A stretch of DNA of 64,000 bases, taken from NCBI GenBank assembly GCA_963377175.1, contig CAUJNA010000577.1:131070-195069 (forward strand). The letters are read 5' to 3'. This document shows positions 3,114 to 53,082 of the stretch, piece by piece. Origin of the DNA: Effrenium voratum (lineage: Eukaryota; Sar; Dinophyceae; Suessiales; Symbiodiniaceae). A program made the translations under genes and the position numbers. Under the pieces are notes generated by a model. The model was given only the letters and a program-made list of their open reading frames with translations. It had not been told where the DNA came from and searched no databases. Each line of letters opens with the position of its first letter. Within the stretch, counting starts at the first letter, position 1.

Positions 3114-3123
3114 AGCATAGGCC

Positions 3124-21745: not shown

Positions 21746-21759
21746 TAAGGAACATCAGC

Positions 21760-23035: not shown

Positions 23036-23070
23036 CCTTGGAGAATGTTCCCAACCCCAACTCAAATTCC

Positions 23071-23679: not shown

Positions 23680-23700
23680 ACTATTAGAAATATTTATAAT

Positions 23701-24038: not shown

Positions 24039-24157
24039 TTCTATGTATATTTGTTTATATAATTATTTACTTAAATATGTATTTATTTATATAATTGATT
24101 TAATGCAAAATCTACTCTTTAAACACTAACTTATGTCCCTGTTGAAACTAACACTAA

Positions 24158-24428
24158 TCAAATGTTCGTTAGTTTCAATAACCATATCGCCTCCTGATTT
24201 TTCTTAATATTCAAATCTTTATCTGTTTTTTTAGAAAACATACATGGGACACAACTAACCTTAACACCATCTTTTTTATCTACCGTCAATTCATTCTTAA
24301 AACTCATAAAATGATTACATGTATCACATTTTATAGATTTGCTTTCACCCATTGATTTAGCACTCTGTCCGTGCTTCAATACCTGTTATTGGTCTTTCTT
24401 TGCTTTTACTCTTTTTCTTTTTTGGCAT
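24158..24428 (-). pseudogene. Basic protein with CxxC...CxxC zinc-ribbon-like motif
   Basis: From ATG 24428 the minus strand begins MPKKKKSKSKERP, a nuclear-localisation-like cluster. A one-base shift near 24380 leads into KCDTCNHFMSF and SCVPCMFSKK, four cysteines spaced like a zinc ribbon, ending at 24158. About 90 residues. Part of the AT-rich viral block; function unknown. Confidence 0.45.
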
Positions 24429-24844
24429 TTGTAGTAACATTTACATTTTTAATTTTGATATATTCTATTACTAACTTAACTAGTTCCATTGTATAGTAAG
24501 AACATTTTTAATTTTATTGTCAGTTATTATTACTTGTTCTATATTATCTACTTCATTTATTATATCAACACAGTCTGAATAAGTCCGTTCCATATTAAAT
24601 AAAAAGATAAATTATTCTAATTAGTCTTATTATTTCATGCATGGTAGAATATTTGGGGCACAGCACTTGGGGTTTTCATCGCACACGCGAGCAAGACACA
24701 AAACTAATTATCTTCAATGCTTATTGATTGAAGTTGATGAAAGAGCCCGTTCTACTACGATAGACACCATTCATATCATAGCAATGCTTTCATACAATAA
24801 ATAATATTAAATTATTGTCTAAATATCTTTAGTATTATTTTTTT
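24429..24844. other. Non-coding spacer upstream of the ATPase
   Basis: Very AT-rich. No reading frame beyond short ones. It separates the minus-strand small genes from the plus-strand ATPase and so probably contained divergent promoters. Confidence 0.4.
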
Positions 24845-25602
24845 ATGCCTGATAATTCACCACCAAAAATAGAACCAATAAATGTTAGACAATATCAAGT
24901 TAAACAACCAAGCTATGATAAAGCAGATAAACTTCCATTTCGTCGTATTATTTGTAGTTCATCACAGGGCGGTAAAGGAATACTTATACAGAACCTCGTA
25001 ATACAAGTATATCGGAACGGCTTCGAACGTATATACATCGTTTCTCCAACAGCAACTATTGATGAAGCGTATAGAGAAATTAATAAATATGTAGAAACTG
25101 AATTAAAGATAGATGATAATAAAGAACAATATGTGTTTGATGAATATAATCCAGAAGCATTACAAAATATAATTGATACACAACTTGAAATAATAGATTA
25201 TCAAAACAAAATAGGAATGACTAAACTATTTTCGTGTCTTCTGATAATTGATGATTTTGCGGAAGATAAAACATTTCTGCAATGTAGTAAAATATTACAC
25301 GGATTATATACAAAATCTCGTCATTTTGGTTTATCTGTTACTACAGCCGTTCAAAAATATAGCAATCTCGCTCCTATTGTTAGGTTAAACACCAGCAGTT
25401 TGTATATATTCAAATTAGAGAGTATGTCCGAGGTTGATACATTCATAATGGAACAATCAGCATTAGTAGATAAACATTAATGAAAACATATCAAATGGCA
25501 GTTAATGACTAACCTTTTAATTTTTTATTTGTTAAACTTCGTGAGAGTGGTGTAAATAAAGTATTTATGATAAGACTTGAAAAAGAAATTCGCATAAATT
25601 AG
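24845..25602 (+). pseudogene. A32-like genome-packaging ATPase, AT-rich copy
   Basis: FtsK/HerA-type ATPase that pumps viral DNA into capsids. The P-loop reads SSSQGGKGILIQ, a degenerate Walker A beside the canonical GPSKSGKT of the GC-rich copies, and Walker B is LLIIDDFAED. YIVSPTATIDEAY and SRHFGLSVTTAVQKY align with the IYIFSP and GRHLQISTWVSSQK segments of the copy at 46488. The main frame stops at 25480 through a frameshift. The missing C-terminus continues as a second frame with an in-frame TAA, FNFLFVKLRES to a TAG at 25602. About 250 residues, normal for the family. Confidence 0.85.
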
Positions 25603-25675
25603 TAATATTCATAATTTTAATATTATTAATTTAAAATAATGAATAGTTACAAATCTGAACCGGATTTTTTTTAAT

Positions 25676-25840
25676 TTATTTGTCACCATGTATTTTCTCC
25701 AGTTTTTCTAATCCTTCACTCATTTGCTTAATTGCTTTCAACTGTAACTTCTCAATGTTACTTAAATCTAATTCCTCTTCGTTAATATCATTAACTTCAT
25801 CAATACTTGAAGTTTCAACATTACTAATTGAATTACCCAT
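25676..25840 (-). CDS. 54-aa protein with N-myristoylation signature
   Basis: Intact minus-strand ORF starting MGNSISNVE. Gly2 and Ser6 fit the MGxxxS myristoylation consensus. It is acidic in the middle and ends in a Lys/Glu amphipathic helix (KLQLKAIKQMSEGLEKLEKI). It lies just 3' of the fibre gene on the same strand. A GC-rich small ORF at 47236/59423 also starts MGAALS, so a short acylated protein may be common to these elements. Confidence 0.5.
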   Translation of the reverse strand: MGNSISNVETSSIDEVNDINEEELDLSNIEKLQLKAIKQMSEGLEKLEKIHGDK

Positions 25841-25879
25841 GTGATATATTATTTAGATTTGTTTTTTCAATTCCTTACT

Positions 25880-28639
25880 CTATTTTTCTAACTTTTCAAC
25901 TTTATCTATTACTTCCAGTAACGCTTTATGTAATAATATTGGAACTTTTCTATATTCAATACCTAAATATTCACGTTCGGTATGAACTACATTACTAGTT
26001 TCTTTTGGAACTGCCTTTAATAAATCATCAGCAATAGAACCTATGTGGATTGCATCTTTATCGTCTCTCTCTTTTCTTTTGGCTTTTTAGGATTGAATTT
26101 CTTATTCATACTAGTACAATCACTTTTAAGTAAATCTACATCATATTTCAATCTTGCGTCGGAATTATCTATTAGACTTCCATTTATGGTTACAGTTCCA
26201 GCAGTAATATCAATCGCATCACCTGAAGCATCTTGAATATCATTAACAAATAATGTTTTTGTATTAACATCTGGGAAATTATCATTAAATGTTGCTGTAG
26301 CATTGTTGGTAAAACTTCCAGAATTTATTGATGTTCCAAATGTTTTATCAATAGATAATAAAACAAAAGGGGTAGTAGAACTATCAGCAACCCTAAACGC
26401 TGTATTTGATTTTCTGAATATTACATCAATTGTAGGTAAATTAGTTCGATCATAATAAGTTGATATTTCGCTCGTTCCCATTCATAAATCTGTTCCAGTA
26501 GTCATTGACATATTATTTAAAAATGAAACTGTTGTTAAATCAAATGATTGAATGGTGTTAGTTGCTAAATAAGCATATTGAGCTGCTAAGTTAGTATCAA
26601 CGGTTACTAGTGTCCCGCCATTAGGCGCTATATGATTACTTCTTAATGCTCCACCAGTTTTAACATAAACATCGTCAGCAAATAAATTACCCATTACATC
26701 AGCGGCGCTTGTGTTAAAAGTCCATCCGGCAGAAATATTGACAGTTCCTACTATGTTACATTGAACGGCATCGTCGCCACACATGAACCTAATTGAAGAA
26801 TTAGCATCAGTATTTCTCATATCAAAATGAAAACGCACTAACATATCTATATAATTCACAATTTGTATCAACTGTTACTTTACCATCCGTAGCAATATTA
26901 ACATTATCACAATTAACAGCAGCATTCGTACAAATATGTCCTAACACATCAACAGGTTTATTAAAAAAGTCTTATTAACTAATCCATCACACATAAAATA
27001 TTGATTAGAAGCATTGCTAACATTGCCTACACTAACGGCAACAAAATCATTATGGGTCATATATACACCTTCTATTGTGTCGGGCGTGTATCTTCGTATT
27101 GAACCATTATTATTTAAATTCAAATATGAACCATTGTTAAGACTTATTGCTTTGTCAGTTCCTACACACTGCACAGCATCAGTAAATCTCGCTTGTCCAG
27201 CACACTTTAAAACATAACCATTAACACCAACAGCACCTAAACCAAACCTATCCTTTACCCACACTCTTCCAACATAAGCATCTCCGATTTGTGTTTCCCG
27301 TTGACCACCACTTGAACTCATCCACATTCTACCATCACGATTAATATTAAATTCACGATTGAACATTTGAAACGTCATTTGCAATCCAACATTAGGCGAC
27401 GATGTAGTACTAAACTTATTACACATTATACTTCCAGTAGTCGACATATTTAAATTACTATGTAAAGTAGTATTATCACTAAAATTAATAGCACCTGCTA
27501 CCGATTGAGCATTAGTATCTATCTTATCTAACTTTTGTTCTCATGATGTATCCTGTGAATTATTACTAGTAATTATTGAATTAATTGTATTTGTATATCC
27601 TGTTATTAATCCACTTAATCCATCTGATTGTAAAACATAACGAGCATCTGAACCTGCAACATCTAAAATAGATGAACACGAAAATAAACCCGATACTTGT
27701 AAATTACTTAATATTGTAGTATTATGATTCAATATTACTTTATCATTTTGTAGAAATTGAAGAAGTATTAATTTTCACATCTCCAAAGCCACTTTGGTTC
27801 AAAGACGTTGTTGAACCTATCAAACTTCCATAAACATAACTATCAAAATAATTATCATGGGATTCAAATAAATTATTATAATTTCCACATTCTGCTATTT
27901 CAAATAAATCATTATAATTTCCTTATTCTGCTATTTTGAAAGTTGCAGTAGTTGTTATATTATGTATTAATGTGTTATTTAATATTGATGCATCTAACTT
28001 ATTTGACAATAGATTATTAGTTGTTGTCTTATTATAAATGAACCTCCGTTCTGTAAATCTGATATTGCTACAATATGTTAATTTATTGCGCTATTTAATC
28101 CTGTTATTAAATTAGAATTAGAACTAATATTATTGAAATCAGTTGTGATAATATAACCTAAATAATTTATTAAATGTGTATTTGATGAAATATTATTAAA
28201 ATTTGTATTAATTAAATTAGTATTGGAACTAATACTATTGAAATTAATTGTTGTAGTATAACCTAAATTCTTTATTAAATGTGTATTTGATGAAATATTA
28301 TGAAAATTTGCATTTGAAGTTATTGTCAGATTACCTATTAAAAATGTGTTTGATGAAACATTGACTAAATTACTCGCTATGGTGGTTGAATTGTTTTGAA
28401 TGAAATAAGCGTTCGACATTAACTTCTGTCTTATTGTATGATTGAGTTATATCATAAAGGTTGCTATCAATCTGTGTTTTTTTGTAAGTGTCTACTTGGT
28501 CTGCTTTGTTGTTGAGTAAATCAATCATATCTGTTTGACTGGCGTATATGGTCTTTATATCTTGTAATCCTGTGTCATTTACTTCGCTAATTGTGTGTGC
28601 TACAACATTTTCAAAATTTGTTAAATTGATTGGAGGCAT
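25880..28639 (-). pseudogene. Fibre-like protein with C-terminal S74 chaperone domain
   Basis: One long minus-strand coding region broken by several one-base shifts (near 26055, 26870, 26950, 27540-27740 and 28080-28430) and a TGA at 26484-26482. The N-terminus (MPPINLTNFENVV) is followed by DLLNNKADQVDTYKKTQID-type fibre repeats, then Asn/Ser-rich repeats of the form ISSNTHLI. The C-terminus carries DNSDARLKYDVDLL and IGSIADDLLKAVP, the hallmarks of the Peptidase_S74 intramolecular chaperone that trimerises and then cleaves itself from phage and viral fibres. About 900 residues in total. Probably a virion spike or fibre for host attachment. Confidence 0.8.
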
Positions 28640-28701
28640 TATATATTAATAGTAGAAAATGATAGTTCTTATTTTTTTAATATTATCATTTTTACTTATT
28701 C

Positions 28702-29145
28702 TTAATCTAAAATCTGGCAACCTGCATCCTTTATTGATAAAATTTGTTCACTCACTAATGTTATGTAAATCGTGTCTGGCATAAAACTTACGTCCATACT
28801 TCCAGAAGGTTTAACACGGATTAGTAGTTGTTGTCCGGCTTTCGTGTTAATTCCAGTATAACTACTGTCTGGCGCTTTTTCCATATTCATAGCAAAGATG
28901 AACTTGTCGGTTTTATATTGATTAAACTCAATAGATAAATGATGTTGATGAAATAAAGGCAAATTCAATGCTTTTCTTAAATAATAGAACGCTTGTGTTA
29001 AACTTTTACAAGGGTACTCAGGCAATAGTTTTGAACCTAATTGAAGTTGAAGTTCTAAGTCATTGTCAGCGTTATAGTTTCCATGAGTAGAAAAGGTTGT
29101 TCTTGTTGATGGACGGTAAAACCTGTTGTTTTCCTTATGAGATCC
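28702..29145 (-). pseudogene. Major capsid protein, C-terminal half (AT-rich copy)
   Basis: The minus frame reads SHKENNRFYRP, NYNADNDLELQLQLGSKLLP, FIFAMNMEKAPDSSYTGINT and ends AGCQILD-stop. This is the C-terminal jelly-roll region I associate with Polinton-like virus MCPs. It begins abruptly at GGA (29145-29143), where GC content rises and copia sequence starts. Its N-terminal half is at 42447-43378 on the plus strand, and the two ends match in frame if the intervening segment is inverted. Downstream on the same strand is the fibre gene. Confidence 0.8.
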
Positions 29146-31170
29146 AACGGTCGACGAACTGACGGATTTTACCTGGTATGAATGGGAGGAGTCTGCTGAG
29201 GTAGTTTCTGGAAAAGTGCCACTCGCAATGCCTGCGATAGGCGAAGACGGTGAAGCCAAGAAGTACCCATCGATGCCGTGCGTGACTTCTGAGCGAATAC
29301 AGCACAGAGAGAAAGCCGTGAAGGTTGTACGATTCTTCGACGCTTTAGTGTCCAGACCGGTCGGCCGGAAAGAGATGCTGACCAACCCTGATGCGTTGGC
29401 ATCGATGAAGAAAGAATGGTCGGGATTAATCGACCAGGGCGCATTCGATCTTGGCGCGGTGCGTGAATATGACGCTGTAGCCAAGGAGGCAAAAGCGAAA
29501 GGGGAAGAGACACACATGGCTCGCGCACATGGCATTTGCGTTGAAAAGCACTCACAGTTGCCTGTTGCTGATCCTAAGAGGAAGTTCAAAGGTAGAGGCG
29601 TGTTGCTGGGGAACCAAGTGAAGAATCAAAGCTTTGAAGCTGCGATGTTTCAAGATTTGGGGAACTCTCCTGCTTCGTTCGAAGCCTCGCGTTGGGCGGA
29701 TTTTTTGGGTTGTCATGATGGTTGGGATGCGCAGATGGCCGACGCTGTTCAAGCGTACATACAGGCCACCTTGAGAGGCACGCCGTGTTGGATTGAACTG
29801 CCACCGGAGGCTGTGCCGAGTGAATGCAAATGGGATAAGTACAGAAGACCAGTCGTCCCGTTGAGGAAGGCGCTGTACGGACACCCAGATGCGGGAACAT
29901 TCTGGGAGCAGCACTGCGATGAATCAGTGCGTGCCGTTGGTTTTGAACCCCTCGGCGAAGAATGGCCGTCAGTGTACATTCATGAAAAGCTCCAGCTTGT
30001 TCTGGTTGTGTGTGTCGACGACTTCAAAATGGCAGGGCCACAGAAGAACCTTGCCCAAGGGTGGAGCATGTTGCGTACACGTTTGAAGATCGAGCCCGAG
30101 ACTGGACTTGACGTGTACCTTGGTTGTAATCAAAGCAAGGGAAACGTCACTCTCGGGAACGGACACCGTGTAACAACGGTGACCTATGACATGGAACAGT
30201 TCCTACGTTCCTGTGTCGACCGCTATCTTGAGGTGGCGGGCGACGTGAAGTTGAATAAGGTTGTCACTCCTGAGTTGCATGAAGAAACAAAGAATCACGT
30301 CTCACGGAAGCCTGCCAGAGAGGGGCCGTCAGTCGTGTGCAACTGGTGTAACAATCTTGCGCCCACCGACGGTTCTGCCACAGTGCCGGCGGGGAGGGAC
30401 TCCTGAGTTGGCCATGAAGGAGCCCGTGCGTGGACACCTTGCTCCGCATGCCGCTAGCGTACTAATGAAGTTGCTATACGGTGCGCGGATTGCTCGCTTC
30501 GATTTGTTGCGACAAGTGAATCGCCTAGCACGGAATGCGCACAGGTGGACCGACTCCGATGATCGGGGTTTGCATCATTTGATGCGCTATGTGCGTCATA
30601 CTAAACATTGGCGCATGGTCGGTTGGGTTGGAGACCCTATGGATGATGTGCACTTGGCCTTGTGTGCGGACGCTGACTTTGCAGGATGCGTTGACTCGCT
30701 ACGTTCCACCTCTGGTGGACACTTGAATATACAAGGGCCCAATACCCGATTTCCGTTGTCTGGCAGCTCCAAAAGACAGGGTTGTGTGAGTCATCACTCC
30801 CGAGGCCGAAATAGTTGCGGCCAATGTTGCCATGAGATCGATGGGTATGCCTGCTCTAAAGTTGTTAGAGCGGATTCTCAAGAAGTCACCGAACTTTGTG
30901 TTCTATGACGATAACAAGGCTATGATCGGTGTGATCGGGGAGAAACCCCACGATGCGCCACCTTGAGAGAAGCCATGGTGCTAGCATTTCGTGGATGCAT
31001 GAGATGTTCACACGTGATTACATGTCTTTGGCGTATGCGGCTGACATCTACACCAAGGCGTTCAGTGATGGGCGCAAATGGAAACATGCATGTTTGCAGA
31101 TTGGTCTACTTGACCCGAGCTTGCTGTCTGACCCGGATACCCTCAAGGCGCTCACACCCACGTGTGATCC
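29146..31170 (+). pseudogene. Ty1/copia reverse transcriptase and RNase H
   Basis: Open at the left edge as TVDELTDFTWYEWEE. RT features in order: RGVLLGNQV, DAVQAYIQATLRG, PLRKALYGHPDAGTFWEQH and the catalytic LVVCVDDFKMAG (VDD instead of YVDD). After a frameshift near 30340-30400 the RNase H part reads RLARNAHRWTDSDDRGLHHL, DADFAGCVDSLRSTSGG and TPEAEIVAANVAMRSMGMPA, with further shifts near 30790 and 30950, ending around AADIYTKAFSDGRKWKHACL. Integrase is missing here but present on the opposite strand at 43379-44165. Not functional as assembled. Confidence 0.85.
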
Positions 31171-31173
31171 CAT

Positions 31174-32530
31174 AAAGGGACCACGCAGACTGCTTCGGGA
31201 ACGGTTGACGGAGTTCCCATGTTTCCGTACACACACATTCCGATCATGCCCCCGGACCTGTGGTGGTCTGGACTGACGTCCAAAGAGGGATTGCATGAAC
31301 ATGAAGGACATGATCCGGTTGTTGTTGCCAAGGGACCCAGATTGATGCGTGTGAACCCTCCACTCGCGGTTACGACACCGTTCGGGAGCAAGTGGCTTCG
31401 CTCCACTTGGTTTCTGAGCAACGGGTCATGGCTCAAGGTCGAGGATAGGGTTGACCCAGGCAGGGTTGCAATGTGTGCGGATTGATGGATGGGTTGAACG
31501 CGCAGTTTGGCAGTTTCATCCCGTGCCGGTTGCTGTACCGGCGCGGGAGCGATCTCCACGACCACGACCAATTCACGTCGGGTCCGGGGATGTTGACATG
31601 CAGTCCGTGCTGGCCGCATTTGTTGAAGAACTGTCGAACGAGCGCATAGAATTAAAGTGTGTCAACGACCTTGCTTTGGAAACTTTGCTCCGGTTGAAGC
31701 TGCTTATGCGTTGTCTGCATATCAATCACGAGCAGCTTGTCCAGGGCCGTTGTTTTGTTCCGTATCGCATTGCGGTGAAGCACAAACCACAGTTAGCGCC
31801 AGGTATTGAACTCGCGATGGTTAAACATGACGGTGGTGTGCTTCGCGCTCCTGCGCATGTCTCGCTTCCTGGTATGAGAACTCGCACAGTCGTCACTTTA
31901 TACAGTGTTGATTTGGCTCGACCCATTGTGCTGATGGCATGTTCCGAACCGCGTAACTGGTTCACTGCCCTTGCCCGTCACAACGGGCCGCAGGTCGTCA
32001 CCATAACATTGGTCGATGACTTACTGAGCGAGTACGGGGGGAGAATCGCCAGACATGCGCTTACCAAACCTTCCGATTTGTTGTTCTTCGCCGGGCCTTG
32101 CACGGGGGGATCATCATGGGCACGCCTCAACAAGACTCGCGGAATTGACACCGCAGAGAAAATCGAGGCCAAACAAAGGGAATTTTGGAGATTGTTTGAA
32201 CGGTTCGGCACGCCATGACAAAACGAGCTGCGATTTTGTTTGAGTTGCCTGGAAGTTGCGATTATTGGAAGGACGAGAGACTGCATGAGGTTGTTCATGA
32301 TGGCACTAGTCACGAGTTTGATGGATGTCGCTATGGCTTGAAGCAAAGGTACGCCAAGAAACCCATGCCAATCAAGAAACCATGGAGAGTTGTTTCATGG
32401 AACTTTGACCTTGGTAGCTTGTTGTCTAAGAAATGCAATGGAAACCATGAGCATGGACCTTGCGCCGGTCGTGAAACCAAAGAAACCCAGTTGCACACGT
32501 CGTTAGTTGCGGGTGTGATCCTCCGCCGTT
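31174..32530 (+). pseudogene. Copia 3' extension with PCTGG domain
   Basis: Follows RNase H without a gap. 31219-31485 reads MPPDLWWSGLTSKEGLHEHE and KWLRSTWFLSNGSWLKVEDR. 31451-32218 then carries PIVLMACSEP, VTITLVDDL and LLFFAGPCTGGSSWARLN. After a frame change at about 32213 comes LFELPGSCDYWKD, EFDGCRYGLKQ and KKPWRVVSWNFD, then GPCAGRETKETQLHT. I recall this domain as an appendage of copia polyproteins in dinoflagellates. Its PCTGG resembles the PC of C5 methyltransferases but the biochemical role is unknown to me. Decayed by two or more frameshifts. Confidence 0.65.
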
Positions 32531-33327
32531 TTCGTGCTCGAGCAAGGTGCCTCCAGCCGGCACCATTGAAACTCGCTCTTGCGTGTATTACGCGAGGGAG
32601 ATCGCGGAAGCATCAAGCTACTGCGTGTGAAATTTGCACCACCCCGACTGTGCCACCGAGGTGCTGGGTTAGTCCCGAACCTCTGGTGCCAACGGGGAGC
32701 TGGGCCAGTCCCGAACCCCAAGTTTCGAAGAGGAGTTGGACCAGTTCATCGCCTCAACCAGAAACTGGGCTCGTATTGGGACAATTCCGTGGCTTTATTT
32801 ACAGCTGCTTATTTTGGGTTTTCCTGGTTCTGGAGAATATCATCAAGATGACTGCCAATACGACTGTCGTCAATACGAATGAATTCTTCTGCGTGCCTGT
32901 TGGGAAATCCAGACAAGCGGCAATATTCTTGGGGAACTTAGTGAAGAACGCCATCGAGGAGGGCAAGAGGGTACCAAGAGAATGGAGATGGGCAGCAACC
33001 TGGGCATGTGCATAAAGTGGATCGAGGACATCGGCGTCCCTGCTATCTATGCCTCTCAGCGTATTATTCTGCCAGATACCGCGGGATGATGAAAGGTGAA
33101 GGGCAATCCATGAGGGTTGCATTAGAGTTCATCAGCAAAGTTTTCGGACAACTGTCTGCGACGAATGTATGCTTGGGTGGAGGGAATTCTGCAGCAAGGG
33201 GAAGAAGATCGTGGCGGCGCTGAACCAACTTTGCGGTGAGGCATCGCTGCTAGCGAAGAACCCCGAGTTGCTCAACGTCACCAAGTACTGGCGGATATGC
33301 TGAGATCAATCACAGACATCTGGGATC
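32531..33327 (+). other. Retroelement spacer without an intact gene
   Basis: Short discontinuous frames only. About 32590-32770 is a low-complexity stretch with repeats of a GAGCTGGGCCAGTCCCGAAC-type unit, and 32850-33015 reads weakly as protein. No family recognised. It lies between the PCTGG domain and the large downstream ORFs on the same strand. Confidence 0.4.
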
Positions 33328-34170
33328 TTGCATCAGGTGTGGCCGAAGACAACGAGGAACGGTCGTTCACAGCTGCATTCGACCGGGGAGGTATACAAAG
33401 AGTTCATCAGCGATGAGCCGACCAGAGCCTTGTCGTCAAGAAGGTGGAGGAGCTCCGAGGAGTTCCAGACGACTGCAGAGTTTGAGAGGCACGATCGGAG
33501 AATATTGAAGTTCAGAGATCGAAACTGGGGGAAAGTATTCACGTTGAGCGTGATCAAGGCCCCCAAGCTCGACTTCTACGGTCGTGGCGCAAAGGACGAC
33601 TATCAGAAGAATTGGGACCTTGGATTGATCTACCAGAATGAGCTGCATGCATCGATGAAGAACCTCGCGTATGCGCTGAGAAGAGATGAAGATGCCAACC
33701 AGCACAATCTTTTGCGCTGGATGATCTGTGGGTCAACCCCCAGTAACATCTCTGACGCGTGCATCGGGGCGATCAACTCGCTCATGTGCGTTTCCTTCAT
33801 CATGAGGAGGTTGCAGCCATTGCTCGGTGAAAGGCATGCTAGGGATCAGTCGTATACAGCTTATTTCCGTCCAGACAAGAAAGAGCTGAACGAACTCTAT
33901 CGAGAGGTCGAGTTCGCCAGGAATTTCCTGTGGCGCATCGACATGATCTACGAGTCAAAGCTGCCTGCGATGAACATCAACTCCATCAGTTTGGCGCCAC
34001 ACGCGGCTGACAGGGCCGCTGAGAATCAAGATCGGCGCAAGTGGGTGAGCTGGCTGAAGGAGATCGAAATGAAAGCCGAGAAGGACGTCACGATCGACTT
34101 CTTCCAGAACACTACTGCACCATTCACAAAGTCGAGAGGGAACTGGAGAAGTATCCCGAGGACTTTGTGA
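33328..34170 (+). CDS. Cassette ORF 1, unknown, N-terminal part of a large polyprotein
   Basis: About 280 codons, opening without ATG (first codon TTG), so the true start is upstream or lost. Contents are mostly helical: ELHASMKNLAYALRRDEDAN, ISDACIGAINSLMCVSFIMR, ELNELYREVEFARNFLWRID. I recognise no family. The frame leaves coding sense near 34110-34140, where ORF 2 takes over in another frame (THKVERELEKYPEDF-like), suggesting a single one-base shift inside one protein. It could be a structural (gag-like) region, but that is inference. Confidence 0.55.
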   Translation: MHQVWPKTTRNGRSQLHSTGEVYKEFISDEPTRALSSRRWRSSEEFQTTAEFERHDRRILKFRDRNWGKVFTLSVIKAPKLDFYGRGAKDDYQKNWDLGLIYQNELHASMKNLAYALRRDEDANQHNLLRWMICGSTPSNISDACIGAINSLMCVSFIMRRLQPLLGERHARDQSYTAYFRPDKKELNELYREVEFARNFLWRIDMIYESKLPAMNINSISLAPHAADRAAENQDRRKWVSWLKEIEMKAEKDVTIDFFQNTTAPFTKSRGNWRSIPRTL

Positions 34171-36277
34171 TCGGAGAGGAGCCGACGTGGTGGGCGATGG
34201 GCTCATCGAAGACGGAGCCGCCGCAGAAGACGGGGCGACAGCAGAAGTCAGCGTCAAGCTCCGGGCAAAGGAGCCAAACCTCTGGTGGGCCAGTCCCCCA
34301 GCAAGGAGCCTCAAGTGGGGGGTCGCATGCTAGCGATGCCGTTAAGATCGACAACAAGATCATCGACTCCATTTTCCGCATGAACTCCGGTGGTGATGAT
34401 GACAGATGGACAATCATCAACCCAACTGCTGGGCATGACACCTACACCTCATTCGAAGGGGGTATTACTCTGAGTGGCGCGACTGTCAATGTGAAGTTCA
34501 ACATAGACAACAATACAGGGTACCCAATCATACAAACTGTATTTGGGCCGTGTCTTGCAGAAGGTAAGAGCGCGACATATTGGGAGTGTATGCTGAGATG
34601 CCTGACCTCTTCGCTATTGCATTTCAAGGAGAAGACCAGCGCGGAGAAGATTATTCTATCCTACGTTGGGAAGGGGAATGCGGCATGGCTTCAGCTGTGT
34701 GCTTTCATGTGTGCCCAAACGGGATGCTTGATTACAGGGCGCCTTCCGGGCGCCAAAGCCATCGACGCGTTGATCCAGGCGGAGAAGAACCCGGATAACG
34801 CACCTGGACAGTTGAACCGGATTATCAAGAAGCAGAAAAGGGGCCCCATTGGTGAGGCAACGATTCGCGATACGATGATCCAGAAGAAGAGCTTCTTGGT
34901 CCTGGATTGGCCCCTGAGGGCCGTCAACTCGAAAGGGAGCATGAAGACCTTCCAAATGATGGTCAACGAACAGGGGTGGACAAATATTGAAGAGAGATCG
35001 TACTATGGGTCGAGTGAGCAAGTCTCCTCGCCCAATGACACAATGAGTATTATTTCCCGATTGCAGAAACTGGAAAAGCTCGTCATCGAACGACGGAGGC
35101 GAGACATGGATGACTCACCCGTGTCGGTGCACATCTGGATGTCGCTCTATGATTGGGTGTGTATGAGAGGATGTGGGTGGCAGGTGACCGCCAATCCCAT
35201 CATTGACTCATTGCAAAAGACGATATCCGACCTCGTCAACACATGCAGGGGCCTGGTTGTGGTGTGCGTGAATCGCGATGTTGCTTTCCATGGAGGAAGA
35301 GGGGACTTGGGGACGATCGCCAACAGAGTCAGCGAGATCTGCAAAGCGGCAGGCGCGTTGGTGACCGAGAACGATCGCCTGTGGCGCGTGGCCCACGCGC
35401 TCAGAGGTAAGAACTACAAGATCCCTGGGAGCTCGAACCTGCAACATTTCCTCCTGAAGCGATTGTTGGTGGAGAAATCCATCGATGTGATCGCACCAAG
35501 CAACGCGTTTGTGCGTGAGCTGGAGGAGACGTGCATAAACGAGCCCGACCTTCGATTCAACATCCCGAAGAACATGGAGGAGTCGAAGGTGAAATTTGAG
35601 TACAAGCCGACCTTCACTGCGCAATCAAAGCGAAAACAAGAACAGCAGGACGAAGGACACGGCGGACAAGATGCGTTTGGGAACACCGATGTCAGTGATC
35701 AACGTCTTCGATGGTACTCGGTCACGGAGCTCAGCGGGTTTATCTGCGAACTTTGCGTTAGAGAAATGCAGGTGAACAAGTCGAAGGTGCTCGGGCCAAA
35801 CTCGAAGTTCAATCCCACTTCTTGCGTGAACTGTTGCGCGAACTGGAACGCAGACACGAACGGTATTGCGAGGTCTATCGAAGGGAAGAAGCTGTATACG
35901 CGACTCTTCGCGGAATGCGTGGTAGCAGTCCCTGACCTTCAAAACCTCATGGTGGACGTCAACAACGTTCAGGCCATGATCACGATTATACGGGAGCTCG
36001 CATATTCTAAGCTGAAGAAGGAGCTATCCCACGTGGGTTTCGTGAGCATGACAGTGGATCAGGCAGCACAGTTCTACAACAACGGTCACGGGAAGCAATT
36101 GTGTGCATCCCGGATGTGATTATGTGCAAGAATTCCGAGGGAGTCGAGGAGAGAATGTCCATCTTCATGATAGACAAGGATCTTGGCAACGTGGCCTATT
36201 CATCCTGGATCAAGAGCGTGCTCGATCAGGGGACGATGTATGACCTCCTGGGACAGACTTCAAACGAGGAATCCTAG
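34041..36277 (+). CDS. Cassette ORF 2, large unknown protein
   Basis: An open frame of 692 codons to 36119. A one-base shift near 36088 would carry it on as EAIVCIPDVIMCKNSEG to a TAG at 36275-36277. The sequence begins with a Ser/Gln/Gly-rich linker (about residues 50-95), then a globular region with FNIDNNTGYPIIQTVFGPC, VSVHIWMSLYDWVCMRG and GLVVVCVNRDVAFHGGRGD. The last two vaguely recall SGNH-hydrolase spacing, at low confidence. Near the end, ICELCVREMQ and TSCVNCCANW may bind zinc. The longest ORF in the cassette, with no disruption over 2 kb. Confidence 0.6.
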
Positions 36278-37549
36278 ATGGTATTGGGATTCTTTGAGGT
36301 GATGTCGTACTTTCAGCACGAACTACCGCTGTGGAAGGATGTATGGAAGATCAAGAGGGAGTTCGAGCAGTCAATCGTACGGCACCTCGCCGGGAACGTG
36401 ACCCACACGACGGGCCAGAACCGAAAGCGGAACAAACCTTCCGCACAACTCGGAGCGCCCACGAAAGAAGTGCTGGACATCATGAACAAGATCAAGCCCA
36501 GACACCCGCGGTCCCTGATAACTGAGCCTGCTGCCCAAGGGTCCAAGAGAAAGGCAACGGAGGGCGAAGGTGACGGTCTTGGTCAAGCACCAGACCCGAG
36601 CCGAAGCTCTCAGCCCAACGCTGAGAAGGAAGAAAAGAAGCAGCGAGTGATTGATGGGCGGAGAGCGGCGCTCGGATTCCTGGAATCAATGGAGAAGTGC
36701 GTGGGAGAAATGGGAATCTGCATGAAGCGCGCGAACCTGGCCCACGACGGCGACTGCAAGGACTTTGAGGAGGCTGCTGGGAATGAGAAGGCGATGAAGA
36801 AGATCCGTGAGCTACTCAGCAGTGATCCTGTTTCCTCGGATGAAGAAATGGGGGTTACGGAGGAGCCGTCCTCATCAACGTCCAAGGAACGCAAGAGAGG
36901 AGGACAAGCAGGGAAAGAAACAATTGAAATGTATAGCTATACCATCAACTTGGTGGAGATGGCTGACACGGCTGAGGGAGGAGAGCTACAATGCGGTGGC
37001 GTGGACCTCACTCACAACCCGTGCGGGGACAACAGAACGTTCAAGAAGACGCTGGAGCTGGGATGCGACACCATTCCGTGCTACATCCCGAAGTATGGCG
37101 ACGTGAGCAACGTGTGTATGCCATGGGCGTATGCGTCTAGCGTTGACCCCAGTTACTTTCCCAAAGGTGCCAACCTTGAGCAGGTGGATGTGATGCAGCT
37201 TGGCAAGAGCGTCAATTTCTGCGTTGCTCCTTTTGACGGTGCTCCACTATGCAGGATTGGCGATGATCGCTCGGTATGTGCTACGAAAGACCAAGCAAAC
37301 CAGCTATCTCACAACCTATGCAGAGTCCTTCGGCACAAGATCGGCAATTGCCGAGGAAGTGCTTTTAGGTGCGACGAAGGTGGATGGGTCGACATTGACG
37401 CAGTCATTGACGACCGGAACAACGACATATTCCCACCTAACACCTCGAGAGCGAAACGATACATGGGCATCATGGAGGTGATCAAGTGGCAGGAATCAGG
37501 ACACTCACAAGAAATCGAGATTTCAGGTCCTGGCAGCAAGGTTTCCTAG
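36278..37549 (+). CDS. Cassette ORF 3, Lys/Glu-rich linker plus KptA N-lobe
   Basis: The ATG at 36278 directly follows, in the same frame, the TAG that ends the extended ORF 2. 423 codons. Residues about 50-230 are basic/acidic and low complexity (KRKATEGEGDG, KERKRGGQ). Residues about 340-400 read LSHNLCRVLRHKIGN and GGWVDIDAVIDD, the N-terminal winged-helix lobe of KptA/Tpt1 RNA 2'-phosphotransferases with the LRH arginine. The lobe is cut by the stop at 37549 and the rest is in ORF 4, so ORFs 3 and 4 were one protein. Confidence 0.65.
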   Translation: MVLGFFEVMSYFQHELPLWKDVWKIKREFEQSIVRHLAGNVTHTTGQNRKRNKPSAQLGAPTKEVLDIMNKIKPRHPRSLITEPAAQGSKRKATEGEGDGLGQAPDPSRSSQPNAEKEEKKQRVIDGRRAALGFLESMEKCVGEMGICMKRANLAHDGDCKDFEEAAGNEKAMKKIRELLSSDPVSSDEEMGVTEEPSSSTSKERKRGGQAGKETIEMYSYTINLVEMADTAEGGELQCGGVDLTHNPCGDNRTFKKTLELGCDTIPCYIPKYGDVSNVCMPWAYASSVDPSYFPKGANLEQVDVMQLGKSVNFCVAPFDGAPLCRIGDDRSVCATKDQANQLSHNLCRVLRHKIGNCRGSAFRCDEGGWVDIDAVIDDRNNDIFPPNTSRAKRYMGIMEVIKWQESGHSQEIEISGPGSKVS

Positions 37550-37553
37550 CATC

Positions 37554-39431
37554 ATGAAACCGAGTGACACGAGGGAGGCCAGGGAGGAAATGACCAAAGC
37601 TGGCCTGGATCGGGACGACATCGACAGGATGTTCAACAGATGCGACGGATGGTACAGACCTTGGTGCATCCGAGTCACAACTGGTCACAGTGATTTTGGA
37701 TTCATGAGCTCATCCGCACTGGCAAATAGGTATTCCGCAAGGATGGGTGATTCTCTCGGAGGAGCATTCCATGTGACATATGTGGAAAATCTGCCAAGCA
37801 TCGTACGCTGTGGATTAGTCCCCGGCGGAATCGATGGCGGTAACAGGCTAGCACTGCACTTCGGAGCATTCGCTCCATGGGATGAGATGAACGTAGCAAC
37901 GAAGGTGACGTTACGGAACGTAAGGATTGCGATCATCTACATTCCCAGTGCAACCCTCGCGCGGTATGGAGCTGGAGTCGCGGCTAACGGGACATTCATG
38001 GTCTTTGACGTGATTCCGTTCTATGAGGTCAAGTCCATTTGGATTGGCAAAAGCAACGGAGGGAAATGCCTGGAGTACGTCGACATCAAGAGAGCGTACT
38101 CGAAATGTGTGGAGAACAAGATCTGTCCTGGTTTCGTCAATTCATTCCAAGAGTCGGCTGCGATGTTCCTCCAGAACGTCGCAAAGATCAACGAGAGGAT
38201 GCCTGAAACCGAGGCAGGCACCGACAATCTGCACTACATCAAAGACATGGTTGAACGCGCATGCGATCTCCATCGGGACAACAAGATGGAGGAGTTCGAT
38301 GCGCAGGTCAACGAGGTCAGGGGCGAAGTCAGCAAAGTCGTCATCCTGAATGACGAGACATGGGAAGGACTGAGGTGCCGGATATGTCCGTCATGCGCGA
38401 CCGCAATCCCAACATGCTTCTGCTTATGCCTGGAATGTGAAGCGCAACTGATCTCCACCGGGAGGTTCTACATCCACATCAACTCCAATGACGAGGAGGA
38501 CAACCAAAAGCCCAATGTCTCGGGCGATGCCAGGCGTGCACAAGAAGAAGCCAACCATGATGCGGCAGCACAGGAGGATGATCACGAGGCGGAGGAAGTT
38601 CCTGAAGAAGACGACATGGACACGCAAGGATATACATCCGGCTACGTGTCTGAAGAAGAAGATGGCGGTTGGCATTACCGCGACACTGACTTGGCATCAC
38701 GGGATATCATAAATTCCCAGCGGATGGCGATTTGCCTTGATGAGCCGCGCGAGGCTCAGTACATGGCGGGATTCATCGCACTGCAGATGTCCAAGATGCG
38801 GGGGGTGTTCGAGGGTGGTGAGGAGAGAACGTTGAATGCCGCACTCGAGGGGAGGACGGGCTGCCCTTACCACAACGACTTCAAGAGATACCCCAACATC
38901 ACCGAGCACGATCAGGAAGGGATCCTTTTGCCATCAACGGCACTGAAGATTTCTCAATCAGAGAATGTTCGGGCAAGGGTCTTCCGATCGGTTGAGGAGC
39001 GTGAAGAGTATATTCGTATGATGGTGTGCAAATGTGAGGGACTATATACATTCTACAAGCTGTGGATCGCAGCGAGAATCCTCGATGTCACCAAGGGCGA
39101 AATGAAGCTCCTGGTCAAGGACCGCGTGCACCCGGTGGGTGATATTATTTTCAGATGCTTTTCATTGGCTTTCAACTGTAAGTATATATCATTCGTGAGG
39201 GATGGGAACCTTGGCAAATATGGTTATGCGGTCAATGTGAGCGCCATCATTGCGGCCATCGACCCGAACAAATGCGACACACCTCTGCTGGATTGGTGCC
39301 TTCAGAAAGGGCATTGGATATCAGAGGATCACAACAAGAAGTGTGTCCGGGCGCGAGAAGCCCAGAAGAACTTGGACGAGGAGTTCCGTCGACGCACTCA
39401 CAGACTGTCCATTGGGGACAGGTATGCGTAG
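37554..39431 (+). CDS. Cassette ORF 4, KptA/Tpt1-like RNA 2'-phosphotransferase C-lobe
   Basis: 625 codons. KptA/Tpt1 transfers a 2'-phosphate from RNA to NAD+. Residues 40-170 carry the ADP-ribosyltransferase lobe: CIRVTTGHSDFGF (the GHS motif), FHVTYVENLPSIVRCGLVPG (equivalent of HGT...SI..GL) and NRLALHFGAF. Just upstream, in this same open frame, KKSRFQV corresponds to the family's DKQRF. Further on there is a Cys cluster (CRICPSCATAIPTC), an acidic linker at residues 310-375, and an unrecognised 230-residue C-terminal domain. Catalytic competence is uncertain because the second histidine motif is altered. Located between RNase H and the LTR of the retroelement. Confidence 0.7.
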   Translation: MKPSDTREAREEMTKAGLDRDDIDRMFNRCDGWYRPWCIRVTTGHSDFGFMSSSALANRYSARMGDSLGGAFHVTYVENLPSIVRCGLVPGGIDGGNRLALHFGAFAPWDEMNVATKVTLRNVRIAIIYIPSATLARYGAGVAANGTFMVFDVIPFYEVKSIWIGKSNGGKCLEYVDIKRAYSKCVENKICPGFVNSFQESAAMFLQNVAKINERMPETEAGTDNLHYIKDMVERACDLHRDNKMEEFDAQVNEVRGEVSKVVILNDETWEGLRCRICPSCATAIPTCFCLCLECEAQLISTGRFYIHINSNDEEDNQKPNVSGDARRAQEEANHDAAAQEDDHEAEEVPEEDDMDTQGYTSGYVSEEEDGGWHYRDTDLASRDIINSQRMAICLDEPREAQYMAGFIALQMSKMRGVFEGGEERTLNAALEGRTGCPYHNDFKRYPNITEHDQEGILLPSTALKISQSENVRARVFRSVEEREEYIRMMVCKCEGLYTFYKLWIAARILDVTKGEMKLLVKDRVHPVGDIIFRCFSLAFNCKYISFVRDGNLGKYGYAVNVSAIIAAIDPNKCDTPLLDWCLQKGHWISEDHNKKCVRAREAQKNLDEEFRRRTHRLSIGDRYA

Positions 39432-39433
39432 TG

Positions 39434-40054
39434 AAGATGCTGATTGCGGCACGATGTGGGTTAGTCCCCATCCGTTGCTTGCGTCTCATCAACACCATTG
39501 CGATGGAACGACTTTACATCATGATATGGTTTCATGCGTCCAAGATGAATGGATGTGTATATGGTTACATATTCCGACGACTATGACATTCTGGATATTC
39601 ATGGATGGAACTATTACCTCATGGATGATTTCCTTCTCATTATATATATATTGTTCACGGTATCTGGAATGGCTATGATTTGCATTGATTGCTCACCGAT
39701 ATTTCTTTGCCGGAGATATGCAGACTGCTTACGAGCAGGCGCCTCTGTTGGACTCTTGTGGCCAACCCATTTTCTATGGATGACAGCTGCGCGATGCGCA
39801 AATGCGGCAGCTGGGATGTTCACTGGTGGTCAAATGACGTGACAATAGTGTGTTGTGTACACCTGCATATGGGAGTGTGCTTCGATTGGTGGATGAATGT
39901 TTCACTTTTCATACAATCGAACCCGGCATGTTTCACAATGAATGAACGGTGTAGCGATAGCAAGTAAAAGAATGCACGACACGATTTCGTAGCTGAGGCC
40001 GTGGCCAGTGGAACGTTTTGTGGTGTTTGGACCGCATGATGAACAATGCGACCC
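39434..40054 (+). other. 3' non-coding part of the retroelement
   Basis: No significant ORF after the ORF 4 stop. Runs to the polypurine tract at 40055, consistent with a 3' untranslated region of the element. Confidence 0.5.
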
Positions 40055-40148
40055 AAATGGGGGATGTTAAAACCCTCTAGGCCCCGTGCCTAAATTGGGA
40101 AGCTGTTCTGAGGTCTGTGTTGGTGTTGCTTACCAAGTTCCATTGATC
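40055..40148 (+). mobile_element. Polypurine tract and start of a 3' LTR
   Basis: AAATGGGGGA (40055-40064) is a typical plus-strand polypurine tract. It is followed directly by TGTTAA (40065-40070), the TG start expected of a copia LTR. The LTR end and its 5' partner are not identifiable, because the element is truncated on its 5' side, so the LTR length is unknown. If correct, the KptA cassette lies inside the retroelement. Confidence 0.5.
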
Positions 40149-40164
40149 GCCATTTTGGCTCAAG
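40149..40164 (+). other. Relic of the dinoflagellate spliced leader
   Basis: GCCATTTTGGCTCAAG is an exact match to the last 16 nt of the 22-nt DinoSL that is trans-spliced onto dinoflagellate mRNAs. It is not followed by GT, so it is not an SL RNA gene. Its presence implies reverse transcription of a trans-spliced transcript or an SL-mimicking sequence in the LTR. Confidence 0.8.
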
Positions 40165-40416
40165 ACACAATTGAGGTTCAAGATCTGATGTGTAGCTGCA
40201 TTCACACGTGATCGGCATTGAGAGCGGAAAACACTTCGCTTGCGCTGCATTTGTCAGGACCACTGTTGTAACTATTACTCCTTCTCCCTTACAACGTTTA
40301 CACGGGTTCGAATATAACGGCATTGTCCGTATACACCTTTCTACGTGGTTGGTATTACAGCTGGAGGGTTCGGTGCACAGCGTCCCACGGGACGTCACCT
40401 TGCCGTCTCTTGACAT

Positions 40417-40891
40417 CTCTTTAGAGGGCGTTTCCCAAATGGATTCTATTCTACCTGAGAGGCTCCTAGCACTCGTCCGTCCAGGAAATGACCTCGTCCT
40501 GCGAAGGATTCGAAGTCTAAAACGCTGCGCGCAGGCGTGCGGCTGCAAAATAATGACCCCTAGATATGCGCCGCAATTTGGCTCCAGGTTGCATTTCAAG
40601 CGATGTCAAGCTTTGCCAAAGGAAACCCCTTTTCCCTTTTTTTTCGGGGACCCCTTTTTTTGGGACCCCTTGTTTTCTGTTTTTTTTGTTTTTTCTTAGC
40701 CCTGCAAAGGTTGGCTCGCTTGAAATGCAACCTGGAGCCAAATTGCAAGCACATCTAGGGGTCATTATTTTGCAGCCACACGCCTGCACGCAGCGTTTTA
40801 GACTTTGAATCCTTCGCAGGACGAGGTCATTTCCTGGACGGACGAGTGCTAGGAGCCTCTCAGCCATTTGGGAAACGCCCTCAAGAGAGAG
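40417..40891. repeat. Long foldback element, arms about 186/174 bp
   Basis: The left arm 40417-40602 and right arm 40718-40891 are near-perfect inverted repeats (shared ATGACCTCGTCCTGCGAAGG, GGCTGCAAAATAATGACCCC, CTCCAGGTTGCATTTCAAGC) around a T/C-rich 115-bp loop. A second copy is at 61127-61500 and a partial one at about 44500-44585. No coding sequence. Confidence 0.9.
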
Positions 40892-41340
40892 CAGGAGAGG
40901 CGCTCAGTGGGCTGAAGGTGGAAAGGTCCGTCTCGGAAGATCCGTCTCGGACCTGGGAATAAAGGTCGAGGCGCTCACTGGGCTGGAGGTGGAAAGGTCC
41001 GTCTTGGAAGATCCGTCTCGGACCTGGGAATAAAGGTCTTTTAAGGAGAGGCGCTCACTGGGCTGGAGGTGAAAAGGTCCGTCTTGGAAGATCCGTCTCG
41101 GACCTGGATATATATTTTTTATTCTCAGGAGAGGCGCTCGCTGGGCTGAGGTGGAAAGGTCCGTCTCGGAAGATCCGTCTCGGACCTGGGAATAAAGGTC
41201 TTTTAAGGAGAGGCGCTCACTGGGCTGGAGGTGAAAAGATCCGTCTCGGAAGATCCGTCTCGGAAGATCCGTCTCGGACCTGGGTATATTTTTTTATTCT
41301 CAGGAGAGGCGCTCACTGGGCTGGAGGCGGAAAGAACCGT
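40892..41340. repeat. Tandem repeat of GAGGCGCTCACTGGGCTGGAGG units
   Basis: About six units of roughly 70-95 bp built from GAGAGGCGCTCACTGGGCTG, AAAGGTCCGTCTTGGAAGAT and CCGTCTCGGACCTGG blocks in varying combinations. Non-coding. Confidence 0.9.
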
Positions 41341-42446: not shown

Positions 42447-43378
42447 ATAAGAGTGGTAGACACATTTAGTGCTGTAGATATTCTATTTGACAATCTTTCA
42501 TTAAAATTAAATAAAGGGGCAAGTTATATCAATGAGCGCCGTAGCGTTTCATTCTTCCCGTCTGGTTAAAATATCTATAAACATTCGTCTGGAAATCGCG
42601 TGTTGAAAATCGCACTAAATGCTGAAGACAATAGTTGGTTAGACCCTCAATCAGTGATGGTGTTTTTCAACGTTTCAAACGAGGAAACTACAAACAACAA
42701 ACGCTTACGCCCCCTGTCTCCTGCTTACTGCTTTTCAAGATTAATTGCTGGTAATCAACTTGTTGAAGACATTGACTACTACAATAGAAACCATCATATG
42801 ATGAGTTGTTTGATGTCAAAAGGGGCAAGGGACAATGAAGACGCGCAAAGTTTTGGATATAGATACGATGACGGTTTAACGCAACGTTTTGCTGACCCTA
42901 CAACTGGTGCTATTGGAAAAACTTACCCGGGGATTTACGTCTGAAATGGTTGTTGGATCTAAACCTATGCTTGGTTTATTTAACCAGTTTCAGTATATTC
43001 CTTTAAAAGCGTGTCCTCTTGTTTTAGAACTTGAACTTGTCAGTAATTTCACCGATTGTATTGTTTCACCTGATGTTACTGGTGATTTCCCCGCCAGTGA
43101 GAGTGCGCCTAACACACACACATCAAAGCACAGGCGGTGAATTTGAACTTAATAATTGTTTTCTTCAATGTGATGTAGTTAGTCTTAACAATGACCTCCG
43201 CAATAAATATGTTGCTCATCTACTTGATGGAAAAGGATTACCTATTACTTATACTACTTATACATGTCAGTCTAATTCTGTTGTCGGACAAGCAACAATT
43301 AACACTACAGTTGTTTGTTCTGCGTCTAAACTCACTGCCGCATTCATCACCTTCTATAAAGCAGATGCCACAGGAGGA
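42447..43378 (+). pseudogene. Major capsid protein, N-terminal two-thirds (AT-rich copy)
   Basis: Aligns with the GC-rich MCP at 58144. AVDILFDNLSLKLNKGASYI and RRSVSFFPSG correspond to QDELMQSLDYKL and RHDVQYFPSS. The expected start is an ATA at 42447 (ATG lost) and an in-frame TAA sits at 42567. It continues NAEDNSWLDPQSVMVFFNVS, DYYNRNHHMMSCLMSKGARD and PLVLELELVSNFTD, with frameshifts near 42935 and 43110, to KLTAAFITFYKADATGG, where it ends at GGA (43376-43378). The C-terminal part is at 29145-28702 on the other strand. Confidence 0.8.
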
Positions 43379-44165
43379 GCAACTGAAGTTCTTCCCCGAT
43401 GTCGTCTTAGCTTTGTCCTTCTGACGCTCCATGACTGATGCAACTGCCTTCGTCCAATTTGGAGTGACTTAGATCGCTCCTCTGACTTGAACTTCCAGGC
43501 ATAAATTACTACCAGACATTCAAATTCACTTGGCTTAAGTCTACAAGCGCACCATCTTCTTGCCTTTGAACTCCTTGCCATGCAGCCTTATCCATGCACC
43601 TAATCCATTTACCTCCAATGTGTGAGATGGCACAGAGTGGTAATGGCCTGCACCCAGTAGCACGTGGGGCATGTACAAGACAAGCCAAATCTGGTTAATA
43701 ATGAATTAATTTGTTCTTTCAGCAAGGGAATTATTCTCGGTGTCCAGGCACGAAAGGTCGTGGTTCAGCTTTAGCATTAATCAGTTCCGGGCCATCATCC
43801 CAAATACACCTGCTTGATTTTCCTTCTTCTGCAGAAGTGCTTAATGGCCCTGACAACGGAGTCAGTGTTCTTCTTGATAAGTTCCGGTATAAATGTTCCA
43901 AACGATGAGCGCAAACCTGCCTTCCACTTTATGATCTTCTAATGCCGTCACAAAGTCGAACGTTACCAGGTTCCAAACGTCTTTACCTCTCTTAAAGGCT
44001 CCCGTTCGTAATCTGTGTTCATCTTTGCCTTGACGCATAATTCGCAGAAAGGATATTTTGTACCTGTGTGTGAGCAAATAAGCAATGGAGTTGGCGTCCC
44101 TCTTAAGAACTTCCACTTTCTCTTTTTTGATCCTTCGTACACATCAACTTTAATTCCGGCATCTG
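43379..44165 (-). pseudogene. Ty1/copia integrase fragment
   Basis: Minus strand: GAFKRGKDVWNLVTFDFVTA and DHKVEGRFALIVWNIYTGTY hold the first catalytic Asp region. A shifted frame reads NTDSVVRAIKHFCRRRKIKQ, then a damaged DDGPEL-like segment, then LAERTN and CYWVQAIT, the final Glu region. It ends at TSVAP, immediately before the AT-rich MCP piece. The RT that should follow integrase in a copia polyprotein starts at 29146 on the plus strand. Many stops; not functional. Confidence 0.7.
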
Positions 44166-44289
44166 AATCCTCGTATTAACCTCTTCCTTGTGAGCTATTA
44201 CCATGTTGATAACATCTTCAGGTACTTTCTTAGCTGGGGAGCGGACTGGCGTGACCAAGTTCCACACCACGTCCAGGCACGCCGCGGCT

Positions 44290-46487: not shown

Positions 46488-47306
46488 ATGGGGAAGATCA
46501 AGCTGTTTCCTACGGCCGAGTATGGCAGCAAACAGCCCTCGGACCCCGTGGTGCCCCAGGTGCCATGTACAGGTATCTTCCTCGGCCCCAGCAAGTCCGG
46601 CAAAACCGTGGCGCTGATCAGCATGATTCTGGAGCAATACCGCGGAGTATTCGAGAAAATCTATATCTTCAGTCCGTCCATCAATATCGACGACGGCTGG
46701 ATCCCCGTCAAGAAGTACATAGAGGAGGACCTGGGCGTTAATACCGAGCGGGAACAGGCCTACTACGACGAGTGGGACGAGGCAGCGCTGCGGGGCATCA
46801 TCCAGAGGCAGCGCAAGATCACCGAGACATCCAAGAAGTTGGAGATGAAGAAGCTGTATCAGGTGCTGATAATCTGCGACGACTTCGCAGATAGCCCGCA
46901 GCTCCACAAACCTCACGGCGCCCTGGATACGCTCTTCATCCGCGGTCGGCACCTCCAAATCAGCACCTGGGTCAGCTCACAGAAGCTGAGGCTCATCAGC
47001 GCGGCAGTGCGGGTGAACATGCAATTTCTCTGCTGCTGGAGGCTGCGCAACCAGCACGAGCTGGAGGCCGTCATCGAAGAGCTCAGCGCCCTGCTGCCGA
47101 AGGACAAGCTGCACAGGATCTACGAGCAGGCGACTCGGGACCCCTACAGCGTCCTCTTCGTGTACTACCTCAAGCCAAAGAATGAGATGTTCTACTTGCG
47201 CTTCGAAGAGCGTTTCGCTCTGGAGAAAGAAGCCGATGGGAGCGGCGCTCAGCTTCCTGGGTCAGAAGCTGTTCGCGAGTTCCACACTGATCAGCGCACG
47301 GTTTGA
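46488..47306 (+). CDS. A32-like genome-packaging ATPase, element A (intact)
   Basis: 272 codons, uninterrupted. Walker A GIFLGPSKSGKTVALIS (residues about 29-45), Walker B YQVLIICDDFADS (about 124-136) and sensor-like GRHLQISTWVSSQKLRL follow the FtsK/HerA packaging-ATPase order. It begins MGKIKLFPTAEYG, conserved with copy B. The last 24 codons overlap a second frame beginning at ATG 47236. The product would power DNA packaging into the capsid. It is the best-preserved viral gene in the window and the reference for copies at 24845, 59353 and 63768. Confidence 0.92.
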   Translation: MGKIKLFPTAEYGSKQPSDPVVPQVPCTGIFLGPSKSGKTVALISMILEQYRGVFEKIYIFSPSINIDDGWIPVKKYIEEDLGVNTEREQAYYDEWDEAALRGIIQRQRKITETSKKLEMKKLYQVLIICDDFADSPQLHKPHGALDTLFIRGRHLQISTWVSSQKLRLISAAVRVNMQFLCCWRLRNQHELEAVIEELSALLPKDKLHRIYEQATRDPYSVLFVYYLKPKNEMFYLRFEERFALEKEADGSGAQLPGSEAVREFHTDQRTV

Positions 47307-53078: not shown

Positions 53079-53082
53079 CTCT

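Follow-up and report, generated by a model that had tools for sequence, protein, structure and literature searches.

The stretch of Effrenium voratum DNA analysed here, the 64,000 nucleotides at positions 131,070 to 195,069 of contig CAUJNA010000577.1 (hereafter the window), holds what is probably a dead copy of a giant Ty1/copia long terminal repeat (LTR) retrotransposon, whose polyprotein includes an anciently captured and catalytically preserved KptA/Tpt1 domain predicted to heal RNA ends. The features of this copy are given below in window coordinates; C867 is a longer copy elsewhere in the genome, and L037 represents a related copia-like family.

29140 to 40415, plus strand: frame-broken, 5′-truncated copy of the giant Ty1/copia element (blastn, 91–96% identity to six other loci)
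29582 to 30151, plus strand: reverse transcriptase (RT; PF07727, RVT_2) with active-site motif CVDD (Pfam 30.2 bits, cut-off 31.6)
30387 to 31225, plus strand: RNase H region, frame-broken (tblastn to the C867 copy; no Pfam hit)
31889 to 32571, plus strand: PCTGG...ELPxxCxYW conserved domain, limits approximate (found also in L037, BLASTP 9e-20, and in all 10 other proteins compared)
34524 to 35693, plus strand: conserved tail domain, limits approximate (homology in each of the 10 diverged proteins compared)
37270 to 38060, plus strand: KptA/Tpt1 RNA 2′-phosphotransferase domain, frame-broken, limits approximate (PF01885 in unbroken copies, tetrad and HxT, model match to Tpt1)
38100 to 39431, plus strand: cysteine-rich and C-terminal region, polyprotein end (conserved between copies with dN/dS 0.10; part of it has homology in diverged proteins)
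40052 to 40064, plus strand: polypurine-tract-like CCCAAATGGGGGA (adjoins the 3′ LTR in five of five loci with both LTRs, with one substitution in one)
40065 to 40415, plus strand: 3′ LTR, TGT...ACA, 351 bp (matched by the LTRs at both ends of five other loci)

By its sequence, the window copy is dead. Aligned with the C867 protein, it shifts frame nine times before the polyprotein ends; the YVDD of the C867 RT is replaced by CVDD, and the element sequence 5′ of 29140 is missing. These frame breaks explain why the first-pass annotation listed four open reading frames (ORFs); it had treated the region beyond RNase H as separate ORFs, which in C867 share one frame with Gag-Pol. The presence of extra coding sequence after RNase H stands, but its length is about 8.2 kb (~31.2–39.43 kb) instead of 6.1 kb, and the polypurine tract and LTR start that had been placed at 40055–40070 are both there, within the revised limits listed above. 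The RNase H region is named from its position and its motifs. The PCTGG domain resembles a methyltransferase by eye only, with no match below E 1 in a sequence search of solved structures, and the reading of the middle tail domain as SGNH-like is a guess, the sole GDSL hint (E 0.1, below cut-off) coming from L037. Immediately 3′ of the 3′ LTR, at 40416–41264, come a palindrome whose arms are 115 nt long and, after it, tandem repeats of 80 bp, and a diverged (80% at the DNA level) integrase-region fragment from another element of the same kind lies at 43343–44246 on the minus strand.

The complete element is seen at other loci. Four of the six align to the window copy over its full stretch, C3432 from 29971 onward and C1013 only to 39838; in C3432 the first part of RT is absent and only the later part is left. 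No 5′ LTR was seen for the window copy or for C1013, while the other five loci have both LTRs (347–353 bp, TGT...ACA), with 98.6–99.7% identity between the 5′ and 3′ LTR of each locus, gaps excluded. Perfect 5-bp target site duplications (TSDs) flank all five (GATAC, GCTTC, GATGA, CTCAG and GGATC). The C867 copy spans 18.1 kb (21722–39817) and has a single frame of 5562 codons, 5554 from the first Met, that joins Gag-Pol and tail. Its order is a coiled-coil-like start (by eye), CCCH-like fingers, aspartic protease, integrase segment, RT, RNase H region and tail, the fingers, protease and integrase segment all being below Pfam cut-offs. RVT_2-type RT passes the Pfam cut-off of 31.6 in two copies (35.1 bits in C867, and 35.0 bits), and in two copies rve is matched upstream of RT at E 0.003 and at 8.5e-4, below its own cut-off; the integrase motif positions are presumptive. 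The TGT...ACA LTRs, 5-bp TSD and RVT_2 RT are shared with Ty1/copia elements (Pseudoviridae), as would be the integrase-like segment before RT. The element differs from them in its 18-kb size, its one 5562-codon frame, its CCCH-like fingers and the tail with KptA, in which the polyprotein runs ~2,800 residues beyond RNase H.

Two checks had been set beforehand for the proposal that a KptA/Tpt1 domain sits in a copia polyprotein: whether the KptA cassette always occurs without RT, and whether the TGTTAA at 40065 fails to match any 5′ LTR. RT sequence lies upstream on the same strand in all six other loci fetched at length, and TGTTAA matches the 5′ LTR in all five loci with both LTRs, so that the proposal is supported. 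Genome searches covered the 1.156-Gb assembly, with 70 of 2407 first-look candidates scored for the KptA-side ORF and 105 of 4438 for the RT query. Among the matches listed, 10 of 70 KptA places have an RT place 8.3–11.9 kb upstream on the same strand, and three further ones (C5, C530, C787) share a contig with RT only distantly. Five of the 105 scored RT places have frames of at least 5500 codons.

It is extremely improbable that a host TRPT1 retrocopy or a neighbouring gene merely came to lie beside the element. Retroposed genes are abundant in dinoflagellate genomes, as the available part of a review describes, but KptA shares one frame with RT in C867, the TSDs lie outside the whole unit in five of five loci, diverged proteins keep the same domain order, and the element KptA clade is separate from host TRPT1. 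A separate gene beside the element was rejected on the single C867 frame and the TSD positions, and a TRPT1 retrocopy on the TSD positions and the separate clade.

All 70 scored places of the KptA-side ORF are at least 91% identical and 63 of them have no internal stop (counted by hand), which excludes chance as the origin of this ORF; one 90% protein cluster of the tail has 1765 member sequences. Pooled Nei-Gojobori dN/dS was 0.024 for RT, 0.043 for RNase H and 0.062 for the PCTGG domain (each 15 pairs of 6 copies), 0.088 for KptA (36 pairs of 9 copies, some partial; pairwise pN/pS 0–0.43) and 0.09–0.11 elsewhere in the tail. Judged by these ratios, the element is under purifying selection, KptA included.

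The KptA motifs reported earlier (LRH, KSRF, IRVTTGHS, HVTY and GLVPGG...NRLALHF) were all found in place. In the window copy, the catalytic positions are the LRH Arg (codon at 37331) and His (37334), the Arg of IRVTTGHS (37671), the HxT His of HVTY (37770) and the last tetrad Arg, in GLVPGG...NRLALHF (37845). PF01885 scores 15.5 bits in the broken ORF of the window, below the cut-off of 26, and exceeds the gathering score in seven of seven window-family sequences from unbroken copies (31.1–36.4 bits). The four motifs are present in five of five loci and in 16–17 of 21 gene models of the window family (P0018 and P0021 left out); in the motif-less models P0015, P0022 and P0023 the KptA stretch is missing or garbled. 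Tpt1s are the best structural matches of the predicted KptA model, which points to a Tpt1 fold. The R-H-R-R tetrad and HxT are common to the domain and to KptA/Tpt1/TRPT1 proteins (PF01885), from which it differs in its extra insertions, its divergence, its place inside a retrotransposon polyprotein and its position in a clade apart from host TRPT1. A chance motif match was ruled out by conservation among copies, dN/dS, PF01885 scores and the statistics of invariant residues.

Diverged relatives extend the same architecture. A protein search gave 16 further large proteins from ENA sources besides P0005, and the PCTGG domain, the middle tail and at least part of the KptA region each recur in all ten relatives compared, at 20–48% identity. 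P0146 (4868 residues) matches from Gag to integrase at 34% and is 55% identical in the RT region, and P0155 scores 27.9 bits for PF01885, above cut-off. All 13 rows retain LRH; of the rows that cover the position, 12 of 12 have the second Arg, 11 of 11 the last Arg and 10 of 11 the HxT His; P0149 ends before the later motifs, and P0160 is deleted there. With one row from each of five families (pairwise identity 25–31%), invariant residues occupy 30 of 239 shared columns, among them all six catalytic/NAD positions, for which the chance under random placement is about 2e-6.

This invariance argues against a structural or regulatory NAD- or RNA-binding domain that does not need catalysis, which we consider distinctly improbable, even though L037 retains a KptA domain with a degenerate tetrad. 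In the tree, seven rows of the five element families form one clade (100/99; long branches flagged), and the 21 TRPT1 rows, among them the host-like L029 from this same genome, stand separately; the element rows are not grouped with dinoflagellate TRPT1, and L037 falls outside the element-family clade. Taken jointly, we think it likely that this is a giant Ty1/copia LTR retrotransposon, high in copy number and recently active, and that its polyprotein holds a KptA domain captured anciently and catalytically preserved.

Several points weigh against this reading. The best KptA model has a mean pLDDT of 66 and its alignment included Tpt1 sequences, a first AlphaFold model from 11 sequences failed (pLDDT 38), and hhalign of the element KptA with Tpt1 gave 67% probability (E 5e-5). 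No Tpt1 came up when the element protein or its alignment was searched against the sequences of solved structures, and the NCBIfam score is 13.5 bits against a cut-off of 239. KptA of P0146 is below the Pfam cut-off (20.8 bits), P0151 has Arg for His in HxT, and in L037 the motifs read LRG and IKA, with the tetrad His and one Arg lost, so that the chemistry is not indispensable to all such elements. Pfam scans of the tail gave no 2H phosphoesterase or RNA ligase, with four isolated HxT/S triplets present, and genome pattern searches, ARAGORN and Rfam yielded no tRNA that fits the primer site. The element structure, the single frame with Gag-Pol in C867, the preserved tetrad and purifying selection are read from sequence; the enzyme activity of the element KptA is predicted.

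KptA is also carried elsewhere in this genome. In a PF01885 search, 150 of 558 candidates were scored, all 150 above cut-off, and grouped by profile span and frame length; among the matches listed, C276 is host-like. At L029, 1300–2130 holds an apparent host TRPT1 gene with a 277-codon frame and 173 bits to PF01885. One family (L030–L036 read) has the full tetrad and ORFs of up to 2062 codons; it is multi-copy, with a near-canonical KptA after a possible OTU-like region (E 0.13–0.25, below cut-off; the label is a guess). L038, the only member read of another family, joins at 3–4499 a helicase-like domain (AAA_30, 18.5 bits, cut-off 27) and KptA (65.1 bits) in one frame. A further family has a frame of exactly 1114 codons in 43 of the 150 rows listed (hand count). 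L037 (on C3199) has the profile span of this family, a 2228-codon frame that includes masked letters, and a copia-like RNase H end and PCTGG domain upstream of KptA.

These families bear on a counter-defence role, in which the domain would repair or mask RNA that host nucleases or ADP-ribosylation have damaged or marked, or would ADP-ribosylate host RNA in the favour of the element. Several multi-copy families carry KptA, one beside a helicase-like domain, and KptA in viral polyproteins has been interpreted in this direction in the available text of PMC9503650. Pfam scans of the element show no partner ligase or macrodomain, and we regard this role as rather unlikely.

The role we favour is healing of RNA ends for replication, on either broken genomic RNA or an endonuclease-cut tRNA-fragment primer. 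The KptA domain would be made with Gag-Pol, perhaps cut out by the protease of the element, and carried in the particle, where, with NAD+, it may take off or ADP-ribosylate 2′-phosphates, whether terminal or internal (or 5′-phosphates), on RNA. Tpt1/KptA enzymes remove 2′-phosphates in an NAD+-dependent reaction and also ADP-ribosylate 5′-phosphorylated RNA and DNA, both via the tetrad, according to the portions available of PMC6333775 and PMC6582358, and KptA in virus polyproteins has been interpreted as RNA-end processing (PMC9503650, in part). As a tentative generalisation, which may well not hold, some LTR retrotransposons could carry, as an obligate component of Gag-Pol, an enzyme of their own that heals RNA ends: KptA would remove the 2′-phosphates that metal-independent RNases leave on a tRNA-fragment primer or on genomic RNA in the particle, letting reverse transcription start or continue, and would be conserved over an old giant-copia superfamily.

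The tRNA-fragment variant is attractive but unsupported, since no matching tRNA was found and Pfam scans gave no phosphoesterase or ligase partner. Directly 3′ of the 5′ LTR, all five loci with both LTRs carry GGTTATCAGCCGTA. To the eye its reverse complement resembles an anticodon arm with the loop CTGATAA, and it starts like the Drosophila copia primer site. A strict tRNA pattern had no genome match and a looser one had six, against one in a control; three of the six were fetched, and ARAGORN detected no tRNA in them, nor did Rfam in two stretches. One of the six, C3100, resembles by eye an antisense LTR/primer-site junction of another element. In the window, ARAGORN calls a tRNA-Ser(TGA) at 12184–12257 (minus strand) that Rfam does not list at gathering threshold.

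By analogy with the known enzymes, the domain could instead add ADP-ribose to 5′-phosphates of element RNA or cDNA, shielding them from nucleases or premature joining. TRPT1/KptA modifies 5′-phosphorylated RNA and DNA ends by the same tetrad (PMC6582358, available part), and complexes of KptA with DNA rank among the model's best structural matches. Integration would presumably require that this cap first be taken off, and we hold the capping role improbable.

The element has partial parallels among known systems. The DNMT retrotransposons of Symbiodinium and Klebsormidium likewise captured a nucleic-acid-modifying enzyme, in a dinoflagellate and a charophyte, but are LINE, DIRS or Gypsy elements with a cytosine methyltransferase (PMC5890265); in the available part of that text, Symbiodinium Copia elements are without DNMT and 'phosphotransferase' does not occur. 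A Pfam scan of our polyprotein pieces gave no DNMT match. The KptA of a Beihai picorna-like virus and a Botrylloides leachii nidovirus likewise lies within a replication polyprotein, in systems with neither reverse transcription nor LTRs, and the available text on them mentions neither 'retrotransposon' nor 'retroelement' (PMC9503650). A search of viral contigs gave no match. We know of no reverse-transcribing element with RNA 2′-phosphate or ADP-ribosylation chemistry. Among the open PMC full-text matches listed, judged mostly by titles, we found no publication joining KptA/Tpt1 with an LTR element or retrotransposon; the prime sign in the enzyme name may have defeated one of these searches. 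Captured enzymes in retrotransposons are known from DNMT (PMC5890265, in part).

Elsewhere in the window, poxvirus A32-type packaging ATPase ORFs stand one on each side of the element, at 24845–25480 and 46488–47306 (both plus strand; 28 and 43 bits, cut-off 22.8). One is in an AT-rich block (22–30 kb, 27–39% GC) and the other in GC-rich DNA; they probably belong to two separate endogenous segments of DNA-virus or polinton-like type. A 644-aa ORF at 51315–53249 (plus strand) has weak similarity to HNH endonucleases (20.4 bits against a cut-off of 21.4).

In this alga of the Symbiodiniaceae, a family of coral symbionts, about half of the coding length of an abundant repeat family is given to non-retroviral functions under selection. 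Annotation calls for caution, as repeats and not TRPT1 genes can make up the majority of the PF01885 matches listed in such a genome. The presence of KptA in an abundant, recently active element hints at an RNA-repair step in the copying of the element. If KptA acts in replication, retrotransposition would include such a step, and the old question of how copia elements primed by a fragment come by a primer end that can be used would become testable.
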